This document shows positions 3,342 to 15,420 of a stretch of 64,000 bases of DNA, one piece after another. Every line of letters begins with the position of its first letter. Position 1 is the first letter of the stretch. The translations under genes were made by a program, and so were the position numbers. The notes beneath the pieces are model-generated. The model had not been told where the DNA came from and made no database searches. It worked only from the letters and a program-made list of their open reading frames with translations. The stretch covers positions 1 through 64,000 of the forward strand of contig NVWQ02000079.1 of assembly GCA_002733715.2 (NCBI GenBank), written 5' to 3'. This DNA comes from Methylophaga sp. GTDB lineage: Bacteria; Pseudomonadota; Gammaproteobacteria; Nitrosococcales; Methylophagaceae.

Positions 3342-4217
3342 CTATTTATAACGCTGCTTAATTTCTTTTGCAGCACGAACAATAGATTTTGTAATTTCTT
3401 TACGAGCAATTTTACCTGCTTTATCTTTAGATAAATACTCTTTATTTAAATAGATAGCGGCCTGCATTGAAACTGTTTCGCGATCCCAAAAGTAATTTTG
3501 TAATTGAACTTTATAAACATGTGTTGGTTCAACGAATTCGTAGAGGGCTTTACCTTTAGTATCAACAGCATCATTAGCATCTTTATCATTGAATTTAACC
3601 ATCGTTAAATTATCAAAATCACGATCAATATCGTGCATAGCATCTGAACCAAGACCTGATACAGATAGGAAACATTTACTGTCACCACTGGATACGTTAG
3701 AGGCAGCAGTATATAGATCATCACCATATACAACAGATGTAGTTTTGTAACCAGCATCTTCAAGAACTAGATTTGCCCATGTTACAGCACCACCTGACTC
3801 TTCACTAATAAGGTCTAGGAAGGCGTTTTCATCACCTTCAATATCAGTTACATTTTCAACACCAGATTCAGTAGAACAAATCAAATGAACAAATTCTTTA
3901 TGGGCTTGGCCCAAACGAATATAATTAGATGCTTCACTTTTACGTGTACTACGTAAAATACTAAAAGCATCTGGTTGTGCAATAACAATGGCACATTCAC
4001 CATTAGCAGAAGCTTCAAAGTTAGCCATAGAACCACCAAGGTCAAAAACATTTTCACCTTTAATAGTTTTATATCGCTTTAATATTTCTTTGCCAAGATC
4101 AGCATATGTACCGTCCTCAGCACCAGAACATACATTATATTTTGGAATATCGGCTAAAGCTATTGAACCAGATAATGCGAATGTACAGATTATAATTAAT
4201 TGGTAGATTTTTTTCAT
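3342..4217 (-). CDS. exported periplasmic solute-binding-like protein (TAXI-like), 291 aa
   Basis: The start at 4217 (MKKIYQLIIICTFALSGS) has an AAGGAAA ribosome binding site and gives a textbook signal peptide: KK, a hydrophobic core, and ALA just before D23 as the likely cleavage site. No lipobox is seen. The mature part starts DIPKYNVCSGAEDGTYADLG, like TAXI-type TRAP transporter binding proteins, which open with a glycine-rich ligand loop and have two alpha/beta lobes. Four cysteines could form disulfides in the periplasm. A phage-coded exported binding protein is unusual; it might sequester a nutrient or signal, or act on the host envelope. Confidence 0.7.
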   Translation of the reverse strand: MKKIYQLIIICTFALSGSIALADIPKYNVCSGAEDGTYADLGKEILKRYKTIKGENVFDLGGSMANFEASANGECAIVIAQPDAFSILRSTRKSEASNYIRLGQAHKEFVHLICSTESGVENVTDIEGDENAFLDLISEESGGAVTWANLVLEDAGYKTTSVVYGDDLYTAASNVSSGDSKCFLSVSGLGSDAMHDIDRDFDNLTMVKFNDKDANDAVDTKGKALYEFVEPTHVYKVQLQNYFWDRETVSMQAAIYLNKEYLSKDKAGKIARKEITKSIVRAAKEIKQRYK

Positions 4218-4265
4218 GATAATTTCCTTGTTTTCATTAAATTTAAAACAAACCAAAAAACAAAA

Positions 4266-5271: not shown

Positions 5272-6462
5272 TTAAGATAGTGCATATTCTGAGTTCAATA
5301 TATCTTTTGATATATCACCCATTTTAGTTACGGTAAGTATTTTACCTTTTATTTGAGAAGCAATAAAGCTTAACAAATTCGAACCAGCAATTTCAGACAT
5401 AATCTGAATATACTGTTTACGTATATCATTACCATAAGCAGGTAATACTCTAAAGCAATCATGGATTGAGATTACTTGAAAAGGTTTATTGGGCATACTT
5501 TGAATCAAGATACCAATAACCACTGAGTTTACTAAACCCATATTCTTTTCGTCAAGATAGTCAAATATTCTTGCAGATAACATCCCACTATTTTTATAGT
5601 GACCCCATAATTTTATGACCATTTTATCTTTTTTACGAGTATCAGATTTACCTTTCATATTTAGTAAACTAATAATATAAGTAATCTGCTCTTTACTAAA
5701 ATCACATCTACGTGTGATCTCTCTTACAACGTATCCATCAACACTATGTGTAATATTAGCTGGAAGAGATAAACCTTCTTTACTACCTACATTCACAGAA
5801 GTAGTAACCTCAACTGGTTCATCTAAGAACTGAACGAAGTGATCTTCTTTACCCATCACTTTTACATGAACATGGAAATTATCAGACATAACCCAATCAT
5901 GTGATAAAGCATATGGATTCCATAACTCTTTTAATGCTTTATTTAATTCCCATGCACCAGGAATTTTCTCTTCCATTATTTGATAGAATGCAGCTAATAG
6001 TTCACCTTCACCAAATACTTGTATAGGTACTTTAGTAGATCCATATAGGCTTGTCATAATAGCCCGCTTAAGGTCTTTACGCTCAATCTTGGCATTACCT
6101 CCTGTAAGTAGACAAAGATCTTTGTAGAGGCTTGTATAAGCATCTTCCCTTGAACCAGTATCAATGAGATTACATCTCAATGCTGATAACTTACACCCAA
6201 TTAAGCAAGCTAGGATTTGTAGTCCTGATGTTGTTGCATCAAATGATACAGGATAACCAGAAGGTATAGCTTCAAGAGCATCTTTATACGCTTGTACTCC
6301 TGCAAAATACAAAGCAGGTTCTTCTGCTGAAGATATTAGTTTATCTAAATCTTCTTCATGTTTAGCAAACCAATCAAGACGTGTTTCCCACGTCTCTTTA
6401 TCAAGACCATAATTGCTTGCTACATCTATTTTTATATATTCAAGTGCTGTAAATTCTTTCAT
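5272..6462 (-). CDS. N4-type RNA polymerase subunit RNAP2, 396 aa
   Basis: Carries the catalytic half of a T7-like single-subunit RNA polymerase. Motif A is FDATTSGLQ (Asp at about 75), motif B is KRAIMTSLYGST (about 131-142), and motif C is SIHDCFRV (His-Asp at about 332). The length is close to the N4 RNAP2 subunit. In N4 it pairs with RNAP1 to form the heterodimeric enzyme that transcribes middle genes, here the block at 46-64 kb. It is separated from RNAP1 by one small gene (6487-6696), so the three are co-transcribed. Confidence 0.93.
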   Translation of the reverse strand: MKEFTALEYIKIDVASNYGLDKETWETRLDWFAKHEEDLDKLISSAEEPALYFAGVQAYKDALEAIPSGYPVSFDATTSGLQILACLIGCKLSALRCNLIDTGSREDAYTSLYKDLCLLTGGNAKIERKDLKRAIMTSLYGSTKVPIQVFGEGELLAAFYQIMEEKIPGAWELNKALKELWNPYALSHDWVMSDNFHVHVKVMGKEDHFVQFLDEPVEVTTSVNVGSKEGLSLPANITHSVDGYVVREITRRCDFSKEQITYIISLLNMKGKSDTRKKDKMVIKLWGHYKNSGMLSARIFDYLDEKNMGLVNSVVIGILIQSMPNKPFQVISIHDCFRVLPAYGNDIRKQYIQIMSEIAGSNLLSFIASQIKGKILTVTKMGDISKDILNSEYALS

Positions 6463-6486: not shown

Positions 6487-6696
6487 TTAATCTATCAATT
6501 CTTTCATACACATATAGCCTGTGAATCTCTTCGTAGCTTTATGTGTTTTTACATTTGTCTTAATTACAGTACATAATGCTGGTTTTCCATGACCGACACG
6601 TACCAATAAATCACCTTCTTGAAATCTCTGGGTGTCACCAAAGAAGTCATAGTTCATTTTACTTCCATGAAAATTAACTCTAAAAGCTGTTTTCAT
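6487..6696 (-). CDS. small protein between RNAP1 and RNAP2, 69 aa
   Basis: The frame overlaps the end of the RNAP1 gene by four bases (ATGA), so it is translationally coupled to it. The product starts MKTAFRVNFHGSKMNYDFFG and has a beta-rich pattern with RFQEGDLLVRVGHGKPALC, reminiscent of a small SH3-like barrel; that is only a guess from strand spacing. No family is recognised. The position suggests a role with, or an insertion between, the polymerase subunits. Confidence 0.7.
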   Translation of the reverse strand: MKTAFRVNFHGSKMNYDFFGDTQRFQEGDLLVRVGHGKPALCTVIKTNVKTHKATKRFTGYMCMKELID

Positions 6697-7508
6697 ACAA
6701 TTAACTCTTTATTAGCAAATTCAATTGTAGCTTTAGCGTAATCATTACCTTGTGGATTACAGTGATATGCTTGATTATATACTCTTCCACGTTTGTCATA
6801 TTTATTCGTGAGGAAGAATCTATTAGCAAATACATTCAAATGATCATAGATCTCTTTCACTGATCTATTAAATTTCTGAAAAGCTTTAGTTCTTTTCGAG
6901 AAGTCTTGAACAGTTTCAGTGGGTTTCTTCTTATCGAGATTAGCCCACTTATTTTTTACCATATTTGCAGTGAGATTATTAATAGAATACTCAATTTTAT
7001 TTACACGATTGAGGTGATCAAGACAGATGTCATCTTCTGTATGATTATTCTTTAAGATCAATGAACCAGTTTTAGAAAGTTCAGAGAAATACCCTGTTTC
7101 AGTATTTTTAGTAACTTTACCTGGTTCAACCAGTAATGGTAAAGGGTATTGATATATCTCTAATTCATGTGCTAATGAATCAGGTATGTCATGACGTAGA
7201 ATACACACACCACTGGTCATTGAATAGTCCACTACATTAGCATTGATAGCCACTAGAAGCATGTCAGCACATTCTTGCATAGTATCAAAGTGTTTATGTA
7301 GAATGCCTACCAGCACGCTTACAGCGGCTCTTTTATGTATCACCATTTGAACCATGAGTGATATACCGAATTTCACATCAATTTCATTATGTTCAAAATG
7401 ATAAATCACACCATCTGTAGATGCAAAGTGTTCATATATACGTGGTACTAATTGGTTCTTATTATATAATTCTTCAAACGCTATTTGAGCTTCATGGTCA
7501 GCTATCAT
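6693..7508 (-). CDS. N4-type RNA polymerase subunit RNAP1, 271 aa
   Basis: This is the N-terminal half of a split T7-like RNA polymerase. Near its end it has KYDKRGRVYNQAYHCNPQGN, which contains the DxRGR form of the conserved TxxGR motif and the NPQG segment found before motif A in this family. The length matches N4 RNAP1 (about 270 residues). The remaining motifs A, B and C are in RNAP2 at 5272-6462, as expected for the two-subunit N4 enzyme. Confidence 0.92.
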   Translation of the reverse strand: MIADHEAQIAFEELYNKNQLVPRIYEHFASTDGVIYHFEHNEIDVKFGISLMVQMVIHKRAAVSVLVGILHKHFDTMQECADMLLVAINANVVDYSMTSGVCILRHDIPDSLAHELEIYQYPLPLLVEPGKVTKNTETGYFSELSKTGSLILKNNHTEDDICLDHLNRVNKIEYSINNLTANMVKNKWANLDKKKPTETVQDFSKRTKAFQKFNRSVKEIYDHLNVFANRFFLTNKYDKRGRVYNQAYHCNPQGNDYAKATIEFANKELIV

Positions 7509-7509
7509 A

Positions 7510-7701
7510 TTATTTATCCTCTAATAAGTTACTTATTTTAATATTGTTTGATGTTTTAGTTGTTTTATTAATATCCGTAAAAGGAATATGATTTGATCTT
7601 TGTTTACGTTTCCATCTAGATAATGAAGCATAGCTTTTAAATTTACGGGGTATAATTTTACCCGAATCTAAATTAACTAACCAAGCTTTGATTTGTGTCA
7701 T
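7510..7701 (-). CDS. small early protein with common C-terminal tail, 63 aa
   Basis: A basic protein (KAWLVNLDSGKIIPRKFKSY near the start) ending in KISNLLEDK, the tail shared by about a dozen genes here. The tail codons CTTGAGGATAA also provide the GAGG ribosome binding site for RNAP1, whose ATG follows the stop by one base, so RNAP1 translation is probably coupled to this gene. The VNLDSGKI core resembles the frameshifted gene at 9541-9707. Function unknown. Confidence 0.75.
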   Translation of the reverse strand: MTQIKAWLVNLDSGKIIPRKFKSYASLSRWKRKQRSNHIPFTDINKTTKTSNNIKISNLLEDK

Positions 7702-7932
7702 TTACTTATCCTCTAAAAAGTTTAATATTTTTGTTTGTTCTTTAGTTTCTTGTTCTTCAGTAAATACATAAATATTAGGATTATTTAATAATCTTAGAAC
7801 TTGATGAACAGTACCGTATTCTATTTGCCAAGAATATTTCATCCCAGCATATTGCCTTTTAATTACAAAGAAGTCGTAATTACTAAATGGGTCTAAATGA
7901 TTCATATCATCCATACAGGTGATATTACTCAT
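7702..7932 (-). CDS. small early protein with common C-terminal tail, 76 aa
   Basis: Begins MSNITCMDDMNHLDPFSNYD, has a conserved-looking YSWQIEYGTVHQVLRLLNN segment and ends in KILNFLEDK. The codons of FLEDK contain AGAGGATAA, the ribosome binding site of the gene at 7510-7701, which begins at the next base after the stop. The start overlaps the macro-domain gene by four bases. Function unknown. Confidence 0.75.
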   Translation of the reverse strand: MSNITCMDDMNHLDPFSNYDFFVIKRQYAGMKYSWQIEYGTVHQVLRLLNNPNIYVFTEEQETKEQTKILNFLEDK

Positions 7933-8294
7933 ACCCAGTAATTACGATTAGGAAGTATCTTTATCCATTCTGGATCGAACCAGCAATTATTAGGTGCATT
8001 TTCAAATAGTGGTGCTATCTGTTCTTTGGTAAATCCAGCTAAACCACAACCAACCTGTGTTACTTTAAAATCAAATGTTGGTTTAGATATTGCATATCTA
8101 ATGAACTTATCAATATGTGTTATAATTACTTCTAAAGGCATGTGAGCTATATTTATACCTTTTGTGGGTAGAGCGTAGGAAGTACCTGATAGACCTTCTC
8201 CTTGGCCCCATGATGCACCTTTATTAGCAAATGCATATTCTGCTGCACCTGCTCCATGAATTCCACTTAAATTTGAACCGAATACGAATATCAT
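7929..8294 (-). CDS. macro-domain-like protein, 121 aa
   Basis: Starts MIFVFGSNLSGIHGAGAAEY, the phage macro-like pattern (FGSNLxGxHGxGAA) whose loops in macrodomains hold ADP-ribose. A second motif, VGCGLAGFTKEQIAPLF (about 85-101), corresponds to the phosphate-binding loop and C-terminal helix of this group. Such proteins bind or hydrolyse ADP-ribose derivatives; the exact reaction of this branch is not established here. It is flanked by two small tail-bearing genes and lies close to a SLOG-like gene, suggesting a link to nucleotide-signal or NAD-based defence. Confidence 0.75.
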   Translation of the reverse strand: MIFVFGSNLSGIHGAGAAEYAFANKGASWGQGEGLSGTSYALPTKGINIAHMPLEVIITHIDKFIRYAISKPTFDFKVTQVGCGLAGFTKEQIAPLFENAPNNCWFDPEWIKILPNRNYWV

Positions 8295-8495
8295 TTATCT
8301 CTCCTTTAAAAATACGTCTATTTTTATTTGATCTCTTGCTTTTTCAGCAAAGTATCTTGATATAAATAAGCTGTAACCATCTGCTGCTAAATAACTATGC
8401 TTTACAGTTACATAGTAAATAACACCTGTTGATTCTTCTAATTGATAGCCAAATTCATGATCATCATGATTAGTTATCTCACCAGACATACTCAT
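8295..8495 (-). CDS. small early protein with common C-terminal tail, 66 aa
   Basis: Ends in QIKIDVFLKER, a variant of the common tail; the codons AAAGGAGAG also serve as a ribosome binding site for the macro gene that starts one base after the stop. The body (HDDHEFGYQLEESTGVIYYV, then YFAEKARDQ) shares a RYFAxKxR-type segment with the 120-aa protein at 8987-9349 (SRYFAMKYRKS), so the two are probably paralogues. Function unknown. Confidence 0.7.
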   Translation of the reverse strand: MSMSGEITNHDDHEFGYQLEESTGVIYYVTVKHSYLAADGYSLFISRYFAEKARDQIKIDVFLKER

Positions 8496-8986
8496 GGTAA
8501 GTGGCTATTTATCAATTCCTGCATCTCAAGAATTGGTGTATTACCAAAATTATAAATAGGAATATTAAAGTTCTTAGCAATACGTAAAGACATACCAGTA
8601 CCCCCAGTAACCTTACCATTAGCTGTGTAACAAACAACAAATTCACTAGGTGTATTCAAATCTTCACCTAACAATTGATAAGCATTACGAGCCATTAATT
8701 TCTTAACAGCAAAGGATAGATTATCCCAGTTAGGATGAAAGTCTTTAGCTAAACTTAAAGCAGTAGAACCCACATTGTGTAACACACTCTGGCTCTTGTT
8801 ATAGCCCTGCCAAGGTAGATATATATCTTTTAGAGTAGCACCTTCTTCAAATGCAGTATCAGCTCCTGATGCACCTCCTGAACGAAGTGTATAACCTTCA
8901 TCAGATAATGCTTCAGCAACCTGGGTCATATACACCATTATTGAATGATCTGTATCTCTTGCACCAATACCTGTATAATATTTCAT
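8492..8986 (-). CDS. SLOG-like (DprA/LOG-type Rossmann) protein, 164 aa
   Basis: The N-terminus YYTGIGARDT and the motif LRSGGASGADTAFEEGA (about 34-50) match the SLOG superfamily, in which a GGxxGxxxxxxxGA turn binds nucleotide ligands such as NAD- or ADP-ribose-derived molecules. A later segment TGGTGMSLRIAKNFNIPIYN fits the C-terminal part of the same fold. Family members act as sensors in nucleotide-signal defence or as phage-coded counterparts. The substrate cannot be read from sequence. It overlaps the downstream small gene by four bases. Confidence 0.72.
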   Translation of the reverse strand: MKYYTGIGARDTDHSIMVYMTQVAEALSDEGYTLRSGGASGADTAFEEGATLKDIYLPWQGYNKSQSVLHNVGSTALSLAKDFHPNWDNLSFAVKKLMARNAYQLLGEDLNTPSEFVVCYTANGKVTGGTGMSLRIAKNFNIPIYNFGNTPILEMQELINSHLP

Positions 8987-9349
8987 CTATTTATCCTTTA
9001 AAAAGTTATCTAATTTAATTTGTTTTGAACGTTTAATAGCTAAATTCTTTAATAAATAGAGAGCTAATCTATCTGAATAAATTGTACCAATATATCTATC
9101 GTATTTACCTGTTTCTAGGTCTACACACCATAGTCTTATCCCACTCATATATTTTGATTTACGGTATTTCATTGCAAAATACCTTGAAGTAAAGAAACCT
9201 AATGAACTAGATAATGCTATTTCAAAATCCCATTTACTGTACACAGTAAACTTGATTATTTTAAATCCTGTAAAATGCCAATTTTGTAAAGTATATAAAG
9301 TCATTCCTTTATAATCAGACCATTCAACTACATGCTTTAATTCAGGCAT
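8987..9349 (-). CDS. early protein with common C-terminal tail, 120 aa
   Basis: About twice the size of its relatives. It contains SRYFAMKYRKSKYMSGIRLW, resembling the 66-aa gene at 8295-8495, and a second similar block RLALYLLKNLAIKRS, so it may be a fusion or internal duplication. It ends QIKLDNFLKDK; TTTAAAGGATAAATAG ATG serves as tail, stop and ribosome binding site for the SLOG-like gene. Function unknown. Confidence 0.75.
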   Translation of the reverse strand: MPELKHVVEWSDYKGMTLYTLQNWHFTGFKIIKFTVYSKWDFEIALSSSLGFFTSRYFAMKYRKSKYMSGIRLWCVDLETGKYDRYIGTIYSDRLALYLLKNLAIKRSKQIKLDNFLKDK

Positions 9350-9541
9350 CTATTTATCCTTTAAGAAATGATTAACTCTTAATGAGTTTGATATTTCAAT
9401 TGCTTCTTCGTGTTCGGTATATAATATTTTATTTGGATAATATAAGAAATTGAATTTATTAATCTCTTTTGGATTATCAAAATTGCATTCTACAATCTCA
9501 CCTGTTTTCATATCAACAGACCATTGTTGTTCTAGTGACAT
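9350..9541 (-). CDS. small early protein with common C-terminal tail, 63 aa
   Basis: Starts MSLEQQWSVDMKTGEIVECN and has a short body with a VDMKTGEI strand-turn also seen in relatives (VNLDSGKI at 7510-7701, VDLETGKY at 8987-9349). It ends LRVNHFLKDK, again with AAAGGATAA just before the next start. The shared strand-turn motif suggests these genes are one divergent family, not unrelated bodies with a borrowed tail. Function unknown. Confidence 0.72.
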   Translation of the reverse strand: MSLEQQWSVDMKTGEIVECNFDNPKEINKFNFLYYPNKILYTEHEEAIEISNSLRVNHFLKDK

Positions 9542-9707
9542 CAGTTATCCTTCAAGAATTTCTCAATACGTTGTACTCTTCTAGCTCTGTGAGCTTGGTT
9601 AGCTGACGTGTAACCAGTACGAAAGTTAGGATATTTATGTGGTGATTCAATAGTAGATATTTTACCAGATATATCTAGAATGTGTATCTTCTGTGAATTT
9701 TTATGCA
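9541..9707 (-). pseudogene. frameshifted member of the tail family
   Basis: From ATG at 9705-9707 the frame reads MHKNSQKIHILDISGK, then is lost at a run of three A (9660-9662) and ends after 50 residues. Restoring one base moves into a frame that reads ISTIESPHKYPNFRTGYTSA and ends RIEKFLKDN, the common family tail, just before the next gene. The joined product (about 55 aa) fits its neighbours, including the DxSGKI turn. Either a genuine one-base deletion in a short A run or a sequencing error. Confidence 0.7.
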
Positions 9708-9709
9708 TA

Positions 9710-9928
9710 TCAATTATCTTTCAAGAATTCATCAATTTTTAAACTACGTACGTATTTACGCGCTTGTTTCATGTTATTAAAACATTTAACTACATACCCA
9801 TCATTTAACTCTGCTTTTAATGAATTTGTATTTTCACAATGAGCATGTAACTTCCTTGGTTCAATGCTTATACTTCCATCATATTCTACCCAATAACCCA
9901 TGATCTCATTAGTATATGGTTTTTTCAT
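9710..9928 (-). CDS. small early protein with common C-terminal tail, 72 aa
   Basis: I choose ATG at 9928 (MKKPYTNEIMGYWVEYDGSI); AGGTGA lies five bases upstream, and the GTG nine bases earlier is inside that site. The body contains GYWVEYDGSIS and CFNNMKQARKYVRSLKIDEF, and it ends FLKDN. The end of this gene carries GAAAGATAA before the frameshifted gene at 9541-9707. Function unknown. The gene follows a transcription terminator (10022-10054) after a gap of about 90 bases. Confidence 0.7.
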   Translation of the reverse strand: MKKPYTNEIMGYWVEYDGSISIEPRKLHAHCENTNSLKAELNDGYVVKCFNNMKQARKYVRSLKIDEFLKDN

Positions 9929-10021
9929 TAAAATCACCTGTTCTTCTTAAGGGTGTCTTTGGTAAAAACACCTTGCTTTTGAACTTTTTGTTTGCAGGTT
10001 CGATACTATCAAGTTGAACTA

Positions 10022-10054
10022 AAAATGGACTAAATACCGAAGCATTTAGTCCAT
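10022..10054 (-). terminator. rho-independent terminator
   Basis: Minus strand: 11-bp perfect stem ATGGACTAAAT/ATTTAGTCCAT, 8-base loop GCTTCGGT, then TTTTT. It lies five bases past the stop codon of the gene at 10060-10461 and would end the transcript that begins at the hairpin promoter near 10505. Confidence 0.92.
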
Positions 10055-10059
10055 AATTT

Positions 10060-10461
10060 TTAGCCAAATTTAACGTTTTGAAGTACATCAGAAACAAGTG
10101 CTTCATTAACTTCAGTTGTAGTGCCACCAACTTTATGTAATTGTAGTTCAAGACCACTAATTACAGTGTTGTCACCAGCTTCTAATTTTTCAAATGCTTC
10201 TTGCAGTTTATTGATCAAAAAGTTGCGATTGGTATTAATAAGCTGCATCTTTTCAGATGACTTAGAACTGATTTTGGATAGTACTTGCACATCCAAAGGA
10301 ATACCTTTTGGAAGTGATACAAATACTACTTCTTTTTCACCAAGTTCATTTTTAAATTCAATATTGAAACCAATATTTAACCAACCAGTTGCTTGTGGTG
10401 CATCACCATTTGCAGTTGATTTATTAGTTGTTTGTTCTGTTTTATCAAAGATAAGAGCCAT
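10060..10461 (-). CDS. hypothetical early protein, 133 aa
   Basis: The start MALIFDKTEQ is preceded by AAGGAA; the ATG eight codons earlier has no such site. The sequence starts with a polar linker (TNKSTANGDAPQATG), then a beta-rich segment (WLNIGFNIEFKNELGEKEVV) and a helical C-terminus. It forms a single-gene unit with its own virion-RNAP-type promoter upstream and a strong terminator downstream, so it is probably highly expressed early. No family is recognised. Confidence 0.8.
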   Translation of the reverse strand: MALIFDKTEQTTNKSTANGDAPQATGWLNIGFNIEFKNELGEKEVVFVSLPKGIPLDVQVLSKISSKSSEKMQLINTNRNFLINKLQEAFEKLEAGDNTVISGLELQLHKVGGTTTEVNEALVSDVLQNVKFG

Positions 10462-10504
10462 GATATAAGTTCCTTGTTTAATCATGTTAAAAGTGGGATT
10501 ATTC

Positions 10505-10522
10505 CCTAACTGCCGAAGGCAG
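10505..10522 (-). promoter_or_regulatory. virion RNA polymerase hairpin promoter
   Basis: On the plus (template) strand TTCC-CTAA is followed by a 5-bp hairpin CTGCC-GAA-GGCAG (10510-10522). This matches the N4 early promoter design: a stem of 5-7 bp, a 3-base purine loop centred at -11, and initiation opposite CC. By that rule +1 is C10505 and the RNA starts GGAAU, running left. The hairpin also encodes the last residues of the 60-aa gene at 10506-10688. It drives the gene at 10060-10461. Confidence 0.8.
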
Positions 10523-10688
10523 ATCTGAGTTTATTACGGATATATGTGCGAGCGACATAAGTATCAAAACACACCGAAAAAAGAAAACAAAATCCTATTC
10601 CGAATGTTATCCATAATAGTGGTGAACCAGGATAAATTACTGATCCCCAATATAAAATTAAGGTTATTACTCCAAATACTACAGACAT
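10506..10688 (-). CDS. small membrane protein, 60 aa
   Basis: Two hydrophobic helices (about 3-20 and 24-44) with a short PGSP turn, and a basic C-terminus (RTYIRNKLRSAFGS). The start follows AGGAACTCCT. The final codons overlap the early promoter hairpin at 10510-10522, so the coding end and promoter are superimposed. No family is recognised. Confidence 0.75.
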   Translation of the reverse strand: MSVVFGVITLILYWGSVIYPGSPLLWITFGIGFCFLFSVCFDTYVARTYIRNKLRSAFGS

Positions 10689-10701
10689 AGGAGTTCCTTC
10701 A

Positions 10702-10878
10702 TTAAGTTAATTCATTTGATGTTCTAAGGATAGAATCACCATTATCATCACGTATGATGTAGTAGGTTATTTCTTGTGCTTTATCCACTTGATATGAAAA
10801 CACAACACCTGTTTGAGTATTACCATTTTCATCAATCCATGTAGCAGTATCACCTGCCTCTAAGTTATTGTTGTTCAT
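10702..10878 (-). CDS. small hypothetical protein, 58 aa
   Basis: The frame opens at ATG 10876-10878, overlapping the last 14 bases of the NADAR gene, and reads MNNNNLEAGDTATWIDENGN onward, a small predicted beta barrel (TGVVFSYQVDKAQEITYYII). The upstream gene end supplies an AGAGGAAA site. No family is recognised. Its overlap with the NADAR gene suggests co-translation. Confidence 0.65.
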   Translation of the reverse strand: MNNNNLEAGDTATWIDENGNTQTGVVFSYQVDKAQEITYYIIRDDNGDSILRTSNELT

Positions 10879-11317
10879 TACGTATTTCCTCTCTTATTGT
10901 CATTAATATTTTACCAAGATGGTTCAGTCCTTCACCTGTCTTTAAACAGATTCCCCAGAACTTATCACCCCACCAATTACCTTCTTCAATAACCATATTG
11001 CCAGTATCCAAAAGCTTCTGTCGAAGCTCAGGATCACTAAACTTAATTTCAAGCAGGGTGTGCATCACAGATAGTTTAATATCTTCCCAGTTATCACGTA
11101 TAGATACTTTACGGCCCATACGTTTAGCTTGACCAGGAGTCATACTAGTAGGTACTAAGAATAAATTACGTTGAATTAATTGAGTGGTCTTCATTGCTTG
11201 AAATGCATGTTCACTTGTAGGGTACACAGCATTAACCAATACTGGATCTTTTATATCTACATACCAGAAGTTACTTAACCAACTGTATTCACCTTTAAAT
11301 TCAGAAATTTTATTCAT
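10865..11317 (-). CDS. NADAR-domain protein (YbiA-like), possible anti-DarT factor, 150 aa
   Basis: Full-length NADAR domain: FKGEYSWLSNFWYVD (7-21), YPTSEHAFQAMKTTQ (32-46), RDNWEDIKLSVMHTLLEIKF, and GNWWGDKFWGICL (about 112-124). These are the conserved blocks of the NAD- and ADP-ribose-associated family, which cleaves N-glycosidic or ADP-ribosyl bonds; some members remove ADP-ribose from DNA guanine. In RB69-type phages a NADAR protein (AdfN) blocks the DarT toxin of DarTG. The same role here is an inference. It overlaps its neighbours on both sides and belongs to an early operon. Confidence 0.85.
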   Translation of the reverse strand: MNKISEFKGEYSWLSNFWYVDIKDPVLVNAVYPTSEHAFQAMKTTQLIQRNLFLVPTSMTPGQAKRMGRKVSIRDNWEDIKLSVMHTLLEIKFSDPELRQKLLDTGNMVIEEGNWWGDKFWGICLKTGEGLNHLGKILMTIREEIRNEQQ

Positions 11318-11556
11318 CTATTTTGTTCCTTTGGTTTAAATTTATTAAAGAAATACGTATTAAATAAATTTACTAATATGTCTTTTGAAATATCTTTATT
11401 TGTTGTAGATTCAACGAAATCTTCTACACAAAGTTCACTAATTGAAGTGTCCTTAAAGTATTGTTTAAAATCATCAATTAAATTTATTTCATCTACGTAA
11501 TTAAGGTAAGTCTTTTCACGTATTAACTTACTTAAACCCATTTCAATATCTTGCAT
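11314..11556 (-). CDS. hypothetical early protein, 80 aa
   Basis: A helical, acidic protein (TYLNYVDEINLIDDFKQYFK) that overlaps the NADAR start by four bases. The end, NTYFFNKFKPKEQNR, has AAAGGAACAAAATAG ATG, the ribosome binding site of the NADAR gene. No family is recognised. The coupling suggests joint expression with NADAR. Confidence 0.7.
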   Translation of the reverse strand: MQDIEMGLSKLIREKTYLNYVDEINLIDDFKQYFKDTSISELCVEDFVESTTNKDISKDILVNLFNTYFFNKFKPKEQNR

Positions 11557-11868
11557 TTATCTATCCTCTATAAATCTTATTAAATTACATTCATTTTTTA
11601 CTACTTCTTTAGAAGTACCAAATACGAATTCTGATAACCTACCTACATGCATTAAAGTTTTATGTATTGCTAAAATATGTGAGTCTATTTTCATCAATAC
11701 TGGTTCATTACTTGACTTAAGATTCCCAACCCATACATACTTATTTAAGTATATCTCTAATCTTTCGTTTACAATTAGATAAGCTTTATATTTACATAAA
11801 CTTACGATTAATAAAGCTATTATTAAGGCAATTAAATTACTACCTATTGCTAGATATAGTTGTGTCAT
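11557..11868 (-). CDS. membrane-anchored early protein with common tail, 103 aa
   Basis: Residues about 3-24 (LYLAIGSNLIALIIALLIVS) are one membrane helix, followed by a basic cytoplasmic domain. It ends NLIRFIEDR, a variant of the common tail; AGAGGATAG in those codons is the ribosome binding site of the next gene. This is the only tail-bearing member with a clear membrane helix. Function unknown. Confidence 0.7.
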   Translation of the reverse strand: MTQLYLAIGSNLIALIIALLIVSLCKYKAYLIVNERLEIYLNKYVWVGNLKSSNEPVLMKIDSHILAIHKTLMHVGRLSEFVFGTSKEVVKNECNLIRFIEDR

Positions 11869-11992
11869 ACTTTTTAGCCTCCAGTTTAGTTCTATGAGTT
11901 AGTTCATAGCTACAGATCATTCTCTGTAACCAATTAACTTTCTTCCCATAACCATAAGCCATGAGAAGTCTTTTACGATAAGCTTTAAACAT
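11840..11992 (-). CDS. small basic protein, 50 aa
   Basis: ATG at 11990-11992 overlaps the end of the upstream gene; the frame reads MFKAYRKRLLMAYGYGKKVN and continues 29 bases into the following membrane-protein gene. The product is strongly basic. It carries the GGAGG used by the next start. The long overlap lowers confidence, but it fills a gap of 116 bases in an otherwise packed operon. Confidence 0.45.
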   Translation of the reverse strand: MFKAYRKRLLMAYGYGKKVNWLQRMICSYELTHRTKLEAKKYDTTISSNR

Positions 11993-12404
11993 TAATTACA
12001 CTCCATTTATCAGTAAAGCTAATTTGGATGTAAGGCATACCACCAGGCATTGCTGACCAATATTTACGAGGTAAACAATACTTAATGTAACCAGCAGATA
12101 TACCTAAAGCTACAAGTTCCATAGCATTATGTTGTTCACCCCATTGATGACCATGCTTATCAAAAGGTAAATTCATGAAAGTATCACCTTCACCGCCATT
12201 AGGATGCTGATCTGATCTCATGAAGAACTTTTCATTAAGTTCAAGAAGTAACTCTTTGATTTCAGTTTTATATTTAGTTACATCAAGGGGTATATAATCA
12301 CCTTTTATTAGTTCAACTAAACGAGGATCACCCATTTTAATATCTTCATCTTCAATGAAGCAAGACATCAATAAATCATTTATATCTTTAGCTATTAGTT
12401 TCAT
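11985..12404 (-). CDS. hypothetical early protein, 139 aa
   Basis: Mixed helical N-terminus (MKLIAKDINDLLMSCFIEDE) and a C-terminal half with HGHQWGEQHNAMELVALGIS and PGGMPYIQISF. The ribosome binding site AAAGGATAA lies in the tail codons of the 57-aa gene just upstream. Histidine-rich segments could bind metal but the spacing matches no pattern I know. No family is recognised. Confidence 0.75.
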   Translation of the reverse strand: MKLIAKDINDLLMSCFIEDEDIKMGDPRLVELIKGDYIPLDVTKYKTEIKELLLELNEKFFMRSDQHPNGGEGDTFMNLPFDKHGHQWGEQHNAMELVALGISAGYIKYCLPRKYWSAMPGGMPYIQISFTDKWSVINV

Positions 12405-12578
12405 CTAATTATCCTTTATGAATAGTTTAATTTTACGTTCTTCTTCACGTACTTTAGTTACATAATCATCCAATCTTTTATTGATTGTACGAGTAACTAT
12501 TTCAAGAGAACGAGATACTTTATTCAGAGGAATTGAATGAGCTTTATCAACCCAATCAATTACTTCTTGATCAGTCAT
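12405..12578 (-). CDS. small helical protein with common tail, 57 aa
   Basis: Starts MTDQEVIDWVDKAHSIPLNK at ATG 12576-12578, overlapping the upstream gene by four bases. It is predicted to be all helix with many charges (TKVREEERKIK) and ends KLFIKDN, a variant of the common tail, with AAAGGATAATTAG ATG leading into the next gene. It is the most divergent body carrying this tail. Function unknown. Confidence 0.65.
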   Translation of the reverse strand: MTDQEVIDWVDKAHSIPLNKVSRSLEIVTRTINKRLDDYVTKVREEERKIKLFIKDN

Positions 12579-12835
12579 AGACCTTCTACGACTTCTTTGA
12601 GCTTATCAATATCAGCCCAATACCAAGTCTTAGGTCTTCCATCATCATGCCTGAATGTTTCTAATTCATCTTGAGAGTAAGCTACAGCGGCTGCTGTAAA
12701 CATACCATTATCAACTAAGCATACTGCATAGTGAATTTCATCTGTGAATAATACAGGTGCATACATCATAGGTATTCCATGAATGTTTAACCATGCTTCT
12801 TTACTCATATCTTTTGGATTGATATAGTATCCCAT
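12575..12835 (-). CDS. hypothetical early protein, 86 aa
   Basis: Starts MGYYINPKDMSKEAWLNIHG and ends VVEGL; contains aromatic residues and a WYWADIDKL segment. The pattern (FTDEIHYAVCLVDNGMFTAA) resembles small conserved phage proteins of unknown role. Its stop overlaps the next start (ATGA). Function unknown. Confidence 0.75.
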   Translation of the reverse strand: MGYYINPKDMSKEAWLNIHGIPMMYAPVLFTDEIHYAVCLVDNGMFTAAAVAYSQDELETFRHDDGRPKTWYWADIDKLKEVVEGL

Positions 12836-12839
12836 TATT

Positions 12840-13067
12840 TTATTCTCCTTTAACTAAGTTAGATCCATTTATTAAAACATGACGATAACTACCATCATCT
12901 TGATATACAGTTAATTCAAACCATACTGATTGGTCATTCAGTTCGTGAACACCAACAGCATTAAAAGATTCACCTTTCCAAACCCTGTTTAGAGGATCAT
13001 CCACTTTTAAACGCATTACTGTTCCTATGATTAAGTTATTATGGCAGTGAGATGGCTTTATTGACAT
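12840..13067 (-). CDS. hypothetical early protein, 75 aa
   Basis: Starts MSIKPSHCHNNLIIGTVMRL after AGGAAATAAAAACA. The body is predicted to be a small beta barrel (RLKVDDPLNRVWKGESFNAV, then VWFELTVYQDDGSYRHVLI). It ends LVKGE, with AAAGGAGAA before the next gene. No family is recognised. Confidence 0.75.
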   Translation of the reverse strand: MSIKPSHCHNNLIIGTVMRLKVDDPLNRVWKGESFNAVGVHELNDQSVWFELTVYQDDGSYRHVLINGSNLVKGE

Positions 13068-13123
13068 TGTTTTTATTTCCTAATGTTGAACTAGTAGGTA
13101 ATACCAATTCTTGTTGTTTGTAC

Positions 13124-13243
13124 TTATTGGTTCGTGTCTTTAAGACTTGATTTAGAGGTAGATTGAGCAGATCTAAACCAGTTAAGTAAGTTGGTGATTG
13201 CATAGTATACTTGTACGTGTGAATCTTGTTGTGATTTAGCCAT
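13124..13243 (-). CDS. small hypothetical protein, 39 aa
   Basis: ATG at 13241-13243 has AAGGAAC seven bases upstream; the frame reads MAKSQQDSHVQVYYAITNLL and ends KSSLKDTNQ. A longer frame (13039-13263) in another register covers the same bases but lacks a good ribosome binding site and has an odd composition, so I prefer this one. It would be the first gene of the early transcript starting near 13450. Confidence 0.5.
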   Translation of the reverse strand: MAKSQQDSHVQVYYAITNLLNWFRSAQSTSKSSLKDTNQ

Positions 13244-13263
13244 AGTTTGTTCCTTAAGCTCAC

Positions 13264-13446
13264 AGGGAGCTTTGTGTTTGAGTTTGGTAATTGGTGTAGT
13301 GATTTAGTTTTAAGGCTGTGTACAGGGTTGAGAGAGAGTTTATGAGTAGTTGTGTAATTTTTAGTTGTTAAAGTATTTACACTTAATTGATCACATTATT
13401 AGTACAATCCCTTATATACATATTTGAAGAATATCGGACTGGTTCC
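13264..13446 (-). promoter_or_regulatory. long untranslated leader of the 13.2 kb gene block
   Basis: The stretch 13264-13506 holds no convincing gene. Its right end has the hairpin at 13447-13459 and the next terminator. The rest is low in open frames and includes GT-rich runs (for example GTGTAATTTTTAGTTG on the plus strand). I see no further defined element in it. Confidence 0.3.
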
Positions 13447-13459
13447 CATCCGAAGGATG
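13447..13459 (-). promoter_or_regulatory. possible virion RNA polymerase hairpin promoter
   Basis: The plus strand has a perfect 5-bp stem with purine loop, CATCC-GAA-GGATG, placed between a terminator (13507-13525) and the start of the next minus-strand gene block. The hairpin fits the N4 design, but the CC initiation site is not at the expected distance (TTCC directly abuts the stem), so it is weaker than those at 10505 and 13860. Confidence 0.45.
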
Positions 13460-13506
13460 ATATATCCCTTCTTATCTTAACAATCTGTAATATCTTATTA
13501 GTTTCT

Positions 13507-13525
13507 AAAGGAGGCGTGAGCCTCC
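13507..13525 (-). terminator. rho-independent terminator
   Basis: Minus strand GGAGGC-TCAC-GCCTCC (6 GC-rich bp) followed by TTT. It lies 9 bases past the stop of the gene at 13535-13834 and ends that single-gene transcript. Confidence 0.75.
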
Positions 13526-13534
13526 AATAGATGT

Positions 13535-13834
13535 TTATGATTTTAGTAGTAATGCTAAGTCTGGGTTATTTTCGAGGAATGCTATATGTTCTAGCTCTCT
13601 CTCTTGTGCGTCTATAAGACGGTTACGTATACCACGTTGCTCTGCTGCAATGAGTTGACGTTCTTGTTCTTCTTTAGAGCCGATGACCTCTGCTCTTAGT
13701 AATGATGCCTTATGTGAGGCTACCTCTACTACTATATTGAGTGCGTCTGCACTACCTGATACTGTGTTTGTTGCTACGCCTACAACCTGTGCTACTGATG
13801 TGAATACGTTGCCTGTTAGTTTCCAAATGTTCAT
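13535..13834 (-). CDS. hypothetical early protein, 99 aa, single-gene unit
   Basis: The start MNIWKLTGNV has GGAGAA six bases upstream; the ATG four codons earlier lies inside that site. The first third is apolar and alanine/valine rich (VFTSVAQVVGVATNTVSGSA); the rest is a long charged helix (SKEEQERQLIAAEQRGIRNR). GC content and codon choice are higher than in neighbours, suggesting a separate origin or strong expression. It has its own hairpin promoter (13860) and terminator (13507-13525), so it is likely among the first and most abundant early proteins. No family is recognised. Confidence 0.8.
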   Translation of the reverse strand: MNIWKLTGNVFTSVAQVVGVATNTVSGSADALNIVVEVASHKASLLRAEVIGSKEEQERQLIAAEQRGIRNRLIDAQERELEHIAFLENNPDLALLLKS

Positions 13835-13859
13835 GATGTTCTCCATGTTAGGTTAATTC

Positions 13860-13877
13860 CAACACTGCCGAAGGCAG
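13860..13877 (-). promoter_or_regulatory. virion RNA polymerase hairpin promoter
   Basis: Plus (template) strand ATTCC-AACA-CTGCC-GAA-GGCAG: a 5-bp stem with loop GAA at 13865-13877, then four bases, then CC at 13859-13860. Spacing is exactly that of the N4 P2 promoter (CC, four bases, 5-bp stem, 3-base loop with purine at -11). Predicted +1 is C13860 with RNA starting GGAAU. The 13-base hairpin is identical to the one at 10510-10522, and both are preceded by ATTCC. Confidence 0.85.
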
Positions 13878-13977
13878 GAACCAGGTGTAATGATGGGGTG
13901 GGTCAGTACAGTGTAAATAAAGATGATGGGGGGGGTGTTTTATCTGTTGGTGTTCAGTAGGTGTAACCCCTACAATA

Positions 13978-14070
13978 AGACTTCTGTATCAAAAAAATTG
14001 AATTAAAAAATTATTTTACAATCAGACTTCTGTATTAAAATTTCTGAATTTGTAAAAAAAAAATTAGAAT
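13978..14070. repeat. 46-bp direct repeat in a gene-free A/T and G-run stretch
   Basis: AGACTTCTGTAT occurs at 13978-13989 and 14024-14035, each followed by an A-rich stretch with TGAATT. The two units differ by several substitutions. Together with a run of eight G just before (around 13928-13935) and a GTAGG/CCTAC inverted repeat, they fill the 13878-14076 gap, where I see no gene. Confidence 0.5.
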
Positions 14071-14076
14071 ATCGGA

Positions 14077-14313
14077 TTAATTATCTGCTAAAAAAGTTAA
14101 TATATTTTCATTATCTTTGTATGCTTTATCTAAGTGTTTTTTAAATAATTTAGCTTTTTTTATGTTTAAGAATACGTTATTTTCTGCTTTTTCTAACTGA
14201 TCAAATAAGGTTTTTTGCTGTAAGTGGTTTTTCATATTATTGTTTGTGATTATAGAGACTTTATGAGGCCATTCTACTTTTACTAAATGTACTGGATACA
14301 TAGATTTTATCAT
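14077..14313 (-). CDS. small early protein with tail variant, 78 aa
   Basis: Starts MIKSMYPVHLVKVEWPHKVS, then a lysine-rich helical body (FDQLEKAENNVFLNIKKAKL) and ends NILTFLADN, resembling the common tail. No gene follows directly, and the tail codons (TTTTTAGCAGATAA) do not make a good ribosome binding site, so here the tail is kept without that DNA function. Function unknown. Confidence 0.7.
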   Translation of the reverse strand: MIKSMYPVHLVKVEWPHKVSIITNNNMKNHLQQKTLFDQLEKAENNVFLNIKKAKLFKKHLDKAYKDNENILTFLADN

Positions 14314-14514
14314 TTAATTATCTTTCAGGAATTTGTTTATTTTTATGTAATCATGGCATTCGTTGTAGGATGAGAAATAAGGGAATGCAGATAAAGTTAT
14401 ATTATCTAATTTTTTGTTAAATTTATGTCTATATACTAACCCCTTACTATTGTAATATATAGGTCTATTGTTTCGGGCTGAACCATATAAATCTATTCTA
14501 TTATTGAATCTCAT
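14314..14514 (-). CDS. small early protein with common tail, 66 aa
   Basis: I place the start at MRFNNRIDLYGSARNNRPIY (14514). A longer frame to 14673 has a proline/serine-rich N-terminus unlike the family, no ribosome binding site, and crosses a CGC-GAA-GCG hairpin. The body has GLVYRHKFNKKLDNITLSAF and YFSSYNECHDYIKINKFLKDN-type ending, with the tail codons giving the next ribosome binding site (GAAAGATAATTAA ATG). Function unknown. Confidence 0.65.
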   Translation of the reverse strand: MRFNNRIDLYGSARNNRPIYYNSKGLVYRHKFNKKLDNITLSAFPYFSSYNECHDYIKINKFLKDN

Positions 14515-14681
14515 GTGAAGGAAACCTTTATGTGTGCCGCGAAGCGCTTGAGGAGCTATGGCTTGAAAGTGCGACGACATATGGTTTATAGATTTATAAA
14601 CGGATTTATCACAATTTAGTGGAGGGGAGGAGGTTCGAGGCGAATTATACAAATCTGAAGAGGGGTGTGTCAAATGCTAAT

Positions 14682-14751
14682 TTTGCATAGGTCATGCAAA
14701 TTATGCATCATGTTTAAAATGCATAGGGTATGCAAAATATACATAGGCTAT
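14682..14751. repeat. three near-palindromic CATAGG repeats between early genes
   Basis: TTTGCATAGGTCATGCAAA (14682-14700), TGCATAGGGTATGCA (14720-14734) and ACATAGGCTAT (14741-14751) share a GCATAGG(N)TATGC layout. The first can form a 7-bp stem with a 5-base loop, the second a 6-bp stem with loop GGG. They lie just past the stop of the gene at 14748-14978. Possible protein-binding operators or weak hairpin promoters; the CC start signal of the virion-RNAP promoters is absent. Confidence 0.55.
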
Positions 14752-14978
14752 CTATCTTCAAGAAATTTAGTTATTTTATGTTGTTTTATATGTTCTTTTG
14801 CTTCTATGATGGTTGTGTAAGTTGTATTTTTATATACATGATTAAGTGTCTTACCCAATTCAGGTTGAGAATAACCTATAGTTACTTTGTAAAAAGTGTT
14901 ATTATTAATAACTACATAAAGGATACGAATACCCTCAAGATACAGTTTTTGTAATTGTTGGAAGGTAGATATTTTCAT
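14748..14978 (-). CDS. small early protein with common tail, 76 aa
   Basis: Starts MKISTFQQLQKLYLEGIRIL; body with VVINNNTFYKVTIGYSQPEL and a helix before the end HKITKFLEDR. It is followed by the palindromic repeats and not by a close gene, so the tail has no ribosome-binding duty here. The layout (short strand, FYKV, then a YTTIIEAKEHI helix) is shared with the next two genes, which are probably paralogues. Confidence 0.72.
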   Translation of the reverse strand: MKISTFQQLQKLYLEGIRILYVVINNNTFYKVTIGYSQPELGKTLNHVYKNTTYTTIIEAKEHIKQHKITKFLEDR

Positions 14979-15208
14979 TACTTATTCTTTAGAAATTGAG
15001 TTATATGTAATTGATCAAGGATATCTTGTGCTTCATGGTAATTAGTGTAGACATCGTATATGAAGAAATTTAAATTCTCATTATCACATATATTTGTTTT
15101 ACTTGTAACAATGAATTCCGTTACAAATTCTTGATGAATATCCCTAACACCAAATAAAATTTTACCTAAGAGTTCATCAGGCAATTCTTTTAAAGTTTCA
15201 ATTTTCAT
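14978..15208 (-). CDS. small early protein with common tail, 76 aa
   Basis: Starts MKIETLKELPDELLGKILFG; the YTNYHEAQDILDQLHITQFL region near the end parallels YTTIIEAKEHIKQHKITKFL in the previous gene and FTTLNEAHQEINLQKLLEHK in the next, clear evidence of paralogy. It ends FLKNK, with AAAGAATAAGTA ATG forming the next start. Function unknown. Confidence 0.75.
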   Translation of the reverse strand: MKIETLKELPDELLGKILFGVRDIHQEFVTEFIVTSKTNICDNENLNFFIYDVYTNYHEAQDILDQLHITQFLKNK

Positions 15209-15420
15209 TTGTGTTCCAATAATTTTTGTAAATTAATTTCTTGATGTGCTTCATTTAATGTTGTGAAGTTAGCGAATTCAAAAGTATCAGGAATCATATT
15301 ATTTAATTGTCTTTTTGTAGGTGCAATATATGAGACTATTTGATTTGTATTACTTACATAAAAAATTACCTCACCATAAAGTTTATATTTAATAATATCA
15401 TTACTACAAGTAACTTCCAT
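15205..15420 (-). CDS. small early protein with tail variant, 71 aa
   Basis: First gene of the leftward early region, next to the divergent late genes. Starts MEVTCSNDIIKYKLYGEVIF, shares the helix FTTLNEAHQEINLQKLLEHK with its two neighbours, and its stop overlaps the next start by four bases. Function unknown. Confidence 0.72.
   Translation of the reverse strand: MEVTCSNDIIKYKLYGEVIFYVSNTNQIVSYIAPTKRQLNNMIPDTFEFANFTTLNEAHQEINLQKLLEHK

Follow-up and report, generated by a model that had tools for sequence, protein, structure and literature searches.

The DNA considered here, hereafter the window, is a stretch of 64,000 nucleotides from an assembly of Methylophaga sp. (GCA_002733715.2, contig NVWQ02000079.1, positions 1 to 64,000 of the forward strand), and homology of its RNAP1 and RNAP2 genes assigns it to an N4-like phage of the Schitoviridae. 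RNAP1 (6693-7508, 271 amino acids, recognised by alignment with known RNAP1s) and RNAP2 (5272-6462, 396 amino acids, 54% identical to its counterpart in Rhizobium phage RHph_Y2_6 and 49% to that in N4), both on the minus strand, form a pair homologous to N4 gp15/gp16 and adjoin a cluster of early genes, which lie on the same strand from 15420 down to the polymerase genes. Fourteen of these early genes, whose products are 55-120 amino acids long, share a nine-residue tail placed exactly at the C-terminus. This tail, its counterparts in other Schitoviridae and the role that it may have are the theme of this report.

The tailed early genes of the window

Named by their lower coordinate, all on the minus strand and with tail coordinates that include the stop codon, the tails closest to the polymerase genes are KISNLLEDK (7510-7539; gene 7510-7701, 63 amino acids), KILNFLEDK (7702-7731; gene 7702-7932, 76), KIDVFLKER (8295-8324; gene 8295-8495, 66), KLDNFLKDK (8987-9016; gene 8987-9349, 120), RVNHFLKDK (9350-9379; gene 9350-9541, 63), RIEKFLKDN (9541-9570; gene 9541-9708, 55) and KIDEFLKDN (9710-9739; gene 9710-9937, 75). 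Farther away lie NLIRFIEDR (11557-11586; gene 11557-11868, 103), whose protein has an N-terminal hydrophobic segment with a mean hydropathy of 2.6, KIKLFIKDN (12405-12434; gene 12405-12578, 57), NILTFLADN (14077-14106; gene 14077-14313, 78), KINKFLKDN (14314-14343; gene 14314-14673, 119), KITKFLEDR (14748-14777; gene 14748-14978, 76), HITQFLKNK (14978-15007; gene 14978-15208, 76) and NLQKLLEHK (15205-15234; gene 15205-15420, 71). The first position is not uniform, being N in 11557, 14077 and 15205 and H in 14978. A preliminary description of this DNA had listed twelve of these genes together with two looser forms (14077 and 15205), and all fourteen are indeed open reading frames (ORFs) that end in the tail.

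A nine-residue profile gives the 14 tails 16.0-24.9 bits, the hit in every case covering the final nine residues, against 4.4 bits for the best other ORF among 87 picked in the window, these scores being in-sample as the profile was built from the same tails. Pairwise comparison of 27 greedily picked ORFs yielded 55 similar C-terminal pairs (BLOSUM62 score of at least 20), where 60 residue shuffles gave 2.2 on average and never more than 7, and no N-terminal pairs, where shuffles gave 1.4; among 55 window ORFs outside the early region, C-terminal pairs (5) matched the shuffles (5.6). Only one tailed protein, 14748, has a PHROG match at E <= 0.001 (E 8.7e-4, a family of unknown function), whereas four of six scanned early genes without the tail (7929, 8492, 10060 and 11985) match families strongly. 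They include a phrog_2072 gene (7929-8294, E 1.5e-46) and a DprA-like phrog_768 gene (8492-8986, E 3.9e-55), and a NADAR domain (E 6.6e-25) is encoded by a further gene without the tail (10865-11317), all on the minus strand; the polymerases lack the tail too. Since these PHROG and NADAR matches fall on genes without it, the tail marks the orphans of the window and not its known-family genes.

The early cluster thus holds the NADAR protein alongside the phrog_2072 and DprA-like genes. The spacer at 14675-14745, before gene 14314, contains repeated ATGCAAA/TGCATA words, judged by eye, and could hold a promoter. Outside the cluster, the 304-residue product of 3342-4256 has a signal-peptide-like start and, by eye, a likeness to periplasmic binding proteins, with no Pfam match at E <= 0.01.

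Close relatives of the window were found in none of the phage, viral-contig and genome-contig searches. Its early region had no match in the phage collection by DNA or protein search (nine of the 14 tailed proteins served as protein queries), RNAP2 as a single query found no relative in viral contigs, and a scan of genome contigs returned two distant loci. An RNAP2 search of 95 genomes, its own included, gave one other match, a weak one; at G057:C1:1567929-1568799 (loci L015 and L016), in a genome from the order to which the host assembly belongs, lies a weak RNAP2-like match with one stop. A search of viral contigs with the tail pattern hit 12 contigs once each, eight of the 12 at an ORF end and none with a second tail, and these hits were set aside as chance or unrelated families. 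A PDB sequence search gave one match, at chance level. In the open PMC literature, with subscription papers and preprints outside its scope, no description of shared tails was recognisable by title or abstract among the matches listed. In the parts covered of five articles (PMC10654107, PMC5746245, PMC9525291, PMC7650795 and PMC7845610), the word "paralog" does not occur and the sole passage on anything "C-terminal" concerns toxin modules.

Tail versions in other Schitoviridae

The main new result is that relatives outside the window carry phage-specific versions of the tail. The relatives sampled were the best 80 of 324 RNAP2-derived loci and the best 80 of 122 RNAP1-derived loci (given L numbers below), L096 being left out of the gene tables. 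Phages phCDa, Littlefix, pVa5 and VBP47, and uncultivated contigs, each bear a shared tail of their own at the ends of small proteins that lack annotation, and the versions are alike around Phi-[KRQ]-[IMLAT]-x-x-[LF]-[LMV]: K-I-x-x-F-L-K/E-D in the window, P-E-V-V-K/R-M-A-x-L-L in phCDa and E-L-K-L-x-x-L-L-E in pVa5. Many proteins of the window phage end in a motif with the spacing Phi-[KRQ]-Phi-x-x-[LF]-L, the match of which to other phages was made by eye. Examples are VPDVVKLAVMLE, PPEIIKLVHMLG and VPEIVRMAALMRD in phCDa, LPPVLQMMQLVGAA and IPDHIKMMKLIGAI in Littlefix, ELKLIMLLES and LKMIHLMEK in pVa5, and VPNEFKTQLLLLGAL in L153, while small genes of L099, the best RNAP2 match among the loci listed, end in IKMDILLGAT-like tails. 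None of 173 other gene sets (88 + 85) has an ORF with the exact tail of the window, but a looser form ends five proteins of Vibrio phage 1.026.O, for example EELKMEDLLEDKS, and a few from 1.097.O, pVa5 and VBP47. Other shared endings, NPKRIELLNWLI and KYYRLMNLV, occur in L157 and L178 and may be further versions.

Two sets of relatives come closest to the window. A shared C-terminal motif is visible, as in the window, in the Shizishanvirus phCDa, in Littlefixvirus and in the Pseudomonas-type contigs L128, L130 and L141, but there it is of the V/L-P-x-x-V-K/R-M-A-x-L-L type, on proteins annotated as hypothetical. The Vibrio phages pVa5, 1.026.O and VBP47 and the Pseudoalteromonas phage pYD6-A also resemble the window in having many small early proteins with one C-terminal motif per phage, and in embedding, on average, Shine-Dalgarno sites in the tail codons; their tails differ in being ELKLxxLLE or YIKMxxLLGE, and pVa5 has tails outside the early region as well. 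In pVa5 the tail core, found by regular expression, occurs in 24 of 64 hypothetical and none of 40 named proteins (Fisher 1.5e-6; names counted by hand; coding sequences truncated at the end of a stretch or joined from two pieces were omitted, or were taken from the other stretch). Among the carriers are two small genes (768-1013 and 1006-1275 of L193) that lie between those for the terminase subunits, which means that tailing extends beyond the early genes. Ten tailed proteins of relatives gave nothing above the Pfam cut-offs, and two of the ten, one from L128 (phrog_8597) and one from L145, matched PHROG families, both of unknown function.

The trait is patchy within the family. In the window and in 11 other phages selected for high scores, 9-89 C-terminal pairs were counted against shuffle maxima of 3-9, all 60 shuffles being surpassed in each of the 12, while in the three comparison phages, N4, RHph_Y2_6 and Arace01, the pairs do not exceed shuffles. 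Across 84 RNAP1-derived loci, partly near-duplicates, there were 438 C-terminal pairs against 74 expected and 146 N-terminal pairs against 85; across 84 sets that combine the window with named phages and RNAP2-derived contigs, the corresponding figures were 159 against 61 and 86 against 65. As 55 of these 159 pairs come from the window, most sets of the latter group show little or nothing. A background drawn from other loci was judged too strict owing to orthologues, and clusters in L129, L164, L139, L138, L037 and L174, which have the appearance of low-complexity noise or spurious ORFs, were not used.

Peptide and ribosome binding in one coding stretch

Of the 14 window tail genes, twelve are followed by another gene within 10 nucleotides; the following start lies 74 nucleotides from 14748, whose K/E codon is GAA, and 230 from 14077, and 15205 overlaps the next start by 4. 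Nine of these 12 close junctions use AAG or GAG as the K/E codon, against usages of 0.22 and 0.18 (binomial P about 1e-4), and through this codon choice eight form an AGGA-type Shine-Dalgarno site (7510, 7702, 8295, 8987, 9350, 9541, 11557 and 12405). Weaker sites occur at 14978 (AAAGAA, with an AAG codon but no AGGA), 14314 and 9710 (AAAGAT, with AAA codons) and 15205 (TTGGA). Hence the tail codons often double as the ribosome binding site of the next gene, as the preliminary description had proposed, although the AAAGGA or GAGGA that it saw in them holds for eight of its 14 genes, the remainder having a weak site or no close follower. In 11 loci examined in this way, the mean Shine-Dalgarno energy of the junctions is stronger than that of random synonymous recodings in ten and equal in L166; the effect is moderate, as median junctions stand at percentiles of 0.09-0.58 among recodings in the ten loci other than L166. 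One coding stretch thus serves both peptide and ribosome binding, the Shine-Dalgarno site being fitted into a conserved peptide.

These junctions raise the possibility that a repeated ribosome-binding element is what is selected and the peptide is a by-product, for which the AAG/GAG excess and the advantage over recoding in ten of 11 loci speak. It is very improbable and already contradicted. The K-I-x-x-F part lies upstream of the Shine-Dalgarno site and its codons are varied; other phages carry other peptides with similar hydrophobic spacing; and ten of 108 tail genes in the 11 loci retain the tail with no start within -35 to +40 nucleotides (starts being called mechanically; L112:10551, one of these genes, is near the end of the DNA stretch examined). 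Within the window, 14748 and 14077 keep it with their distant followers. The peptide is therefore conserved for its own sake, as first surmised, and loss of the tail where another ribosome binding site serves the next gene, which the preliminary description would have taken as a sign of selection on DNA, was not seen in these loci. Moreover, residues are kept while the choice of codon follows usage fairly closely: where tail residues are identical, their codons agree to within 0.12 of the usage expectation in eight of nine loci, slightly above it in seven of these eight (for example 0.64 observed against 0.56 predicted in the window and 0.37 against 0.31 in L140; L148, at 0.28 against 0.30, lies just below), which leaves little sign of recent homogenisation. 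The exception is L145 (0.65 against 0.38), whose codons, unlike those of the other loci, are also alike, suggesting recent duplication; about 20 tandem small genes lie at 1-4135 of L145, many with a DEWxxxWDxxExxV-type ending. A known system for comparison is found in cluster K mycobacteriophages, where start-associated sequences, conserved DNA elements with a ribosome-binding function, are repeated before the starts of many genes of one phage; there the DNA before the start is conserved, whereas here the peptide is conserved and its codons vary.

A probable family of small early proteins with a common helix

In one relative, structure prediction places the tail within a fold. An AlphaFold2 (AF2) model of a tailed L140 protein, built with 25 relatives, is confident (pLDDT 89.9, pTM 0.80) and consists of two strands, a helix, three strands and a final helix at residues 76-85, which is the tail; the tail is therefore the last helix of a folded domain and no add-on outside it. 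In BFVD the model matches proteins of phCDa at ranks 1, 2 and 9 (E 9.9e-4, 5.3e-3 and 0.14, with TM 0.68-0.78 at ranks 1 and 2), of phi176 (Litunavirus; TM about 0.5) at rank 3 and of ZC08 (Zicotriavirus) at rank 14. All three phages, and with them the top three matches, belong to Schitoviridae, and the proteins matched are small early hypothetical ones. Among the annotated tailed proteins of phCDa are some of 79, 75 and 71 amino acids, the lengths of the BFVD matches, with which they were matched by length only. The L140 model had no match at E <= 0.001 in a PDB fold search; VIA-align gave Z of at most 4.1, and a match to phage Dmd at Z 3.2 over 46 residues was not relied on. The window proteins may share this beta-beta-alpha-beta-beta-beta-alpha fold, with the tail as its last helix.

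Tail and body also diverge at different rates in some relatives. In phCDa and Littlefix, whose RNAP1s are 61.5% identical, reciprocal best BLAST matches at E <= 1e-3 link none of the tailed genes but four others. Among orthologue sets, identities in body and tail were 0.39 and 0.53 for L140/phCDa, 0.72 and 0.91 for 1.026.O/1.097.O (one of six rows, not a tail, being dropped from the pooled test) and 0.48 and 0.60 for 1.026.O/pVa5, all significant, and 0.87 and 0.91 for Littlefix/98PfluR60PP and 0.75 and 0.77 for VBP47/PJN101, which are not.

We favour, with a probability of roughly 0.55, the reading that the tailed genes are a fast-evolving, lineage-expanded Schitoviridae family of small early proteins, in which variable bodies are joined to a conserved C-terminal helix that is likely to be a shared contact surface. 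Several observations weigh against it. The core common to the phages is loose, and they were compared by eye and with self-written regular expressions; tails are significantly better conserved than bodies in three of five orthologue sets, by tests that are unadjusted and on residues that are not independent; and in non-tail control genes the last 14 residues also surpass the bodies slightly (0.88 against 0.81 and 0.63 against 0.56), which makes the argument from rates a moderate one. At the ribosome binding site, the median junction of L109 is no stronger than its synonymous recodings (percentile 0.58). As to the fold, E <= 0.001 is attained by just one of the BFVD matches to the L140 model, and ranks 4-8 and 10-13 are other or unnamed viruses; the model of a window protein is poor (pLDDT 69, pTM 0.56; elements H-E-E-H-E-H, with a final helix at 57-75 that includes most of the tail), and its fold search gave no match at E <= 0.001 and no recognisable named Schitoviridae tailed protein among the 50 rows listed.

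The most serious competitor, which we regard as possible, is plain paralogy: tandem duplicates of one small domain whose last helix is buried and kept for stability, with no partner in common. It is in keeping with the confident L140 fold and its counterparts in phCDa, phi176 and ZC08, with N-termini of L140, phCDa and L166 that also rise above shuffles, and with weak similarity in the window between the bodies of 7510 and 9350 (E 0.003) and of 7510 and 8987 (E 0.004). It fits less well with a polar K/R inside the helix that is, by eye, among the steadiest tail positions, or with the occurrence of one tail on unlike-looking bodies in one phage, some with a hydrophobic segment suggestive of membrane anchoring (11557 in the window, 12160 in pVa5) and others rich in CxxC pairs (7674 in pVa5, 11589 in VBP47 and 4621 in L099), as judged by simple sequence counts. 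These two features may point to a surface in common and not solely to a buried core. A degradation signal, also raised in the preliminary description, that would keep early proteins short-lived is unlikely: the tail is shared, hydrophobic and near the C-terminus, and a gene annotated as an ATP-dependent protease adjoins the early region in pVa5 and VBP47, but ssrA-like degrons are read from the free C-terminus and have conserved nonpolar last residues, while the last residue of each of the 14 window tails is K, N or R. Other phages differ in their last residues, with 0 to about 10 extra after the core, and this variation at the very end, next to a motif that is retained slightly further in, disfavours a C-terminal degron. 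Slightly less likely still is a recombination border that would allow cassettes to be exchanged, a suggestion of the preliminary description for which the adjacency of tail and start codon speaks and which is in line with bodies that change quickly among relatives, the phCDa and Littlefix genes being a case in point. With codon identity near usage in all loci but L145, the tail DNA is too unlike to guide exchange, and the L140 model has the tail as its final helix, inside the domain; the border module is thus not supported.

In the favoured reading of an expanded family with a shared contact helix, each lineage would expand its own set of small early proteins, keeping the C-terminal helix and varying the rest, and many members within one phage would carry an almost identical helix, in which a basic residue precedes two hydrophobic turns. 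This helix would most likely serve as a common contact surface, either to a phage-specific partner or among the members themselves, so that docking is the function we favour for it, and the variable bodies may act on different targets, presumably as effectors against the host. A bolder and more doubtful extension is that one hub per phage, either a protein of the phage itself or one of the host that each phage recognises in its own way, reads the common helix, the early proteins being interchangeable effector heads and the tail a private address code that co-evolves with the hub. The small ORFan proteins that lytic phages make early are difficult to classify, their sequences having drifted too far apart for kinship to be seen. 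A helix that is constant and specific to the phage brings together up to 14-17 of them per early region, marks these as one set and may serve as bait for finding what they have in common.

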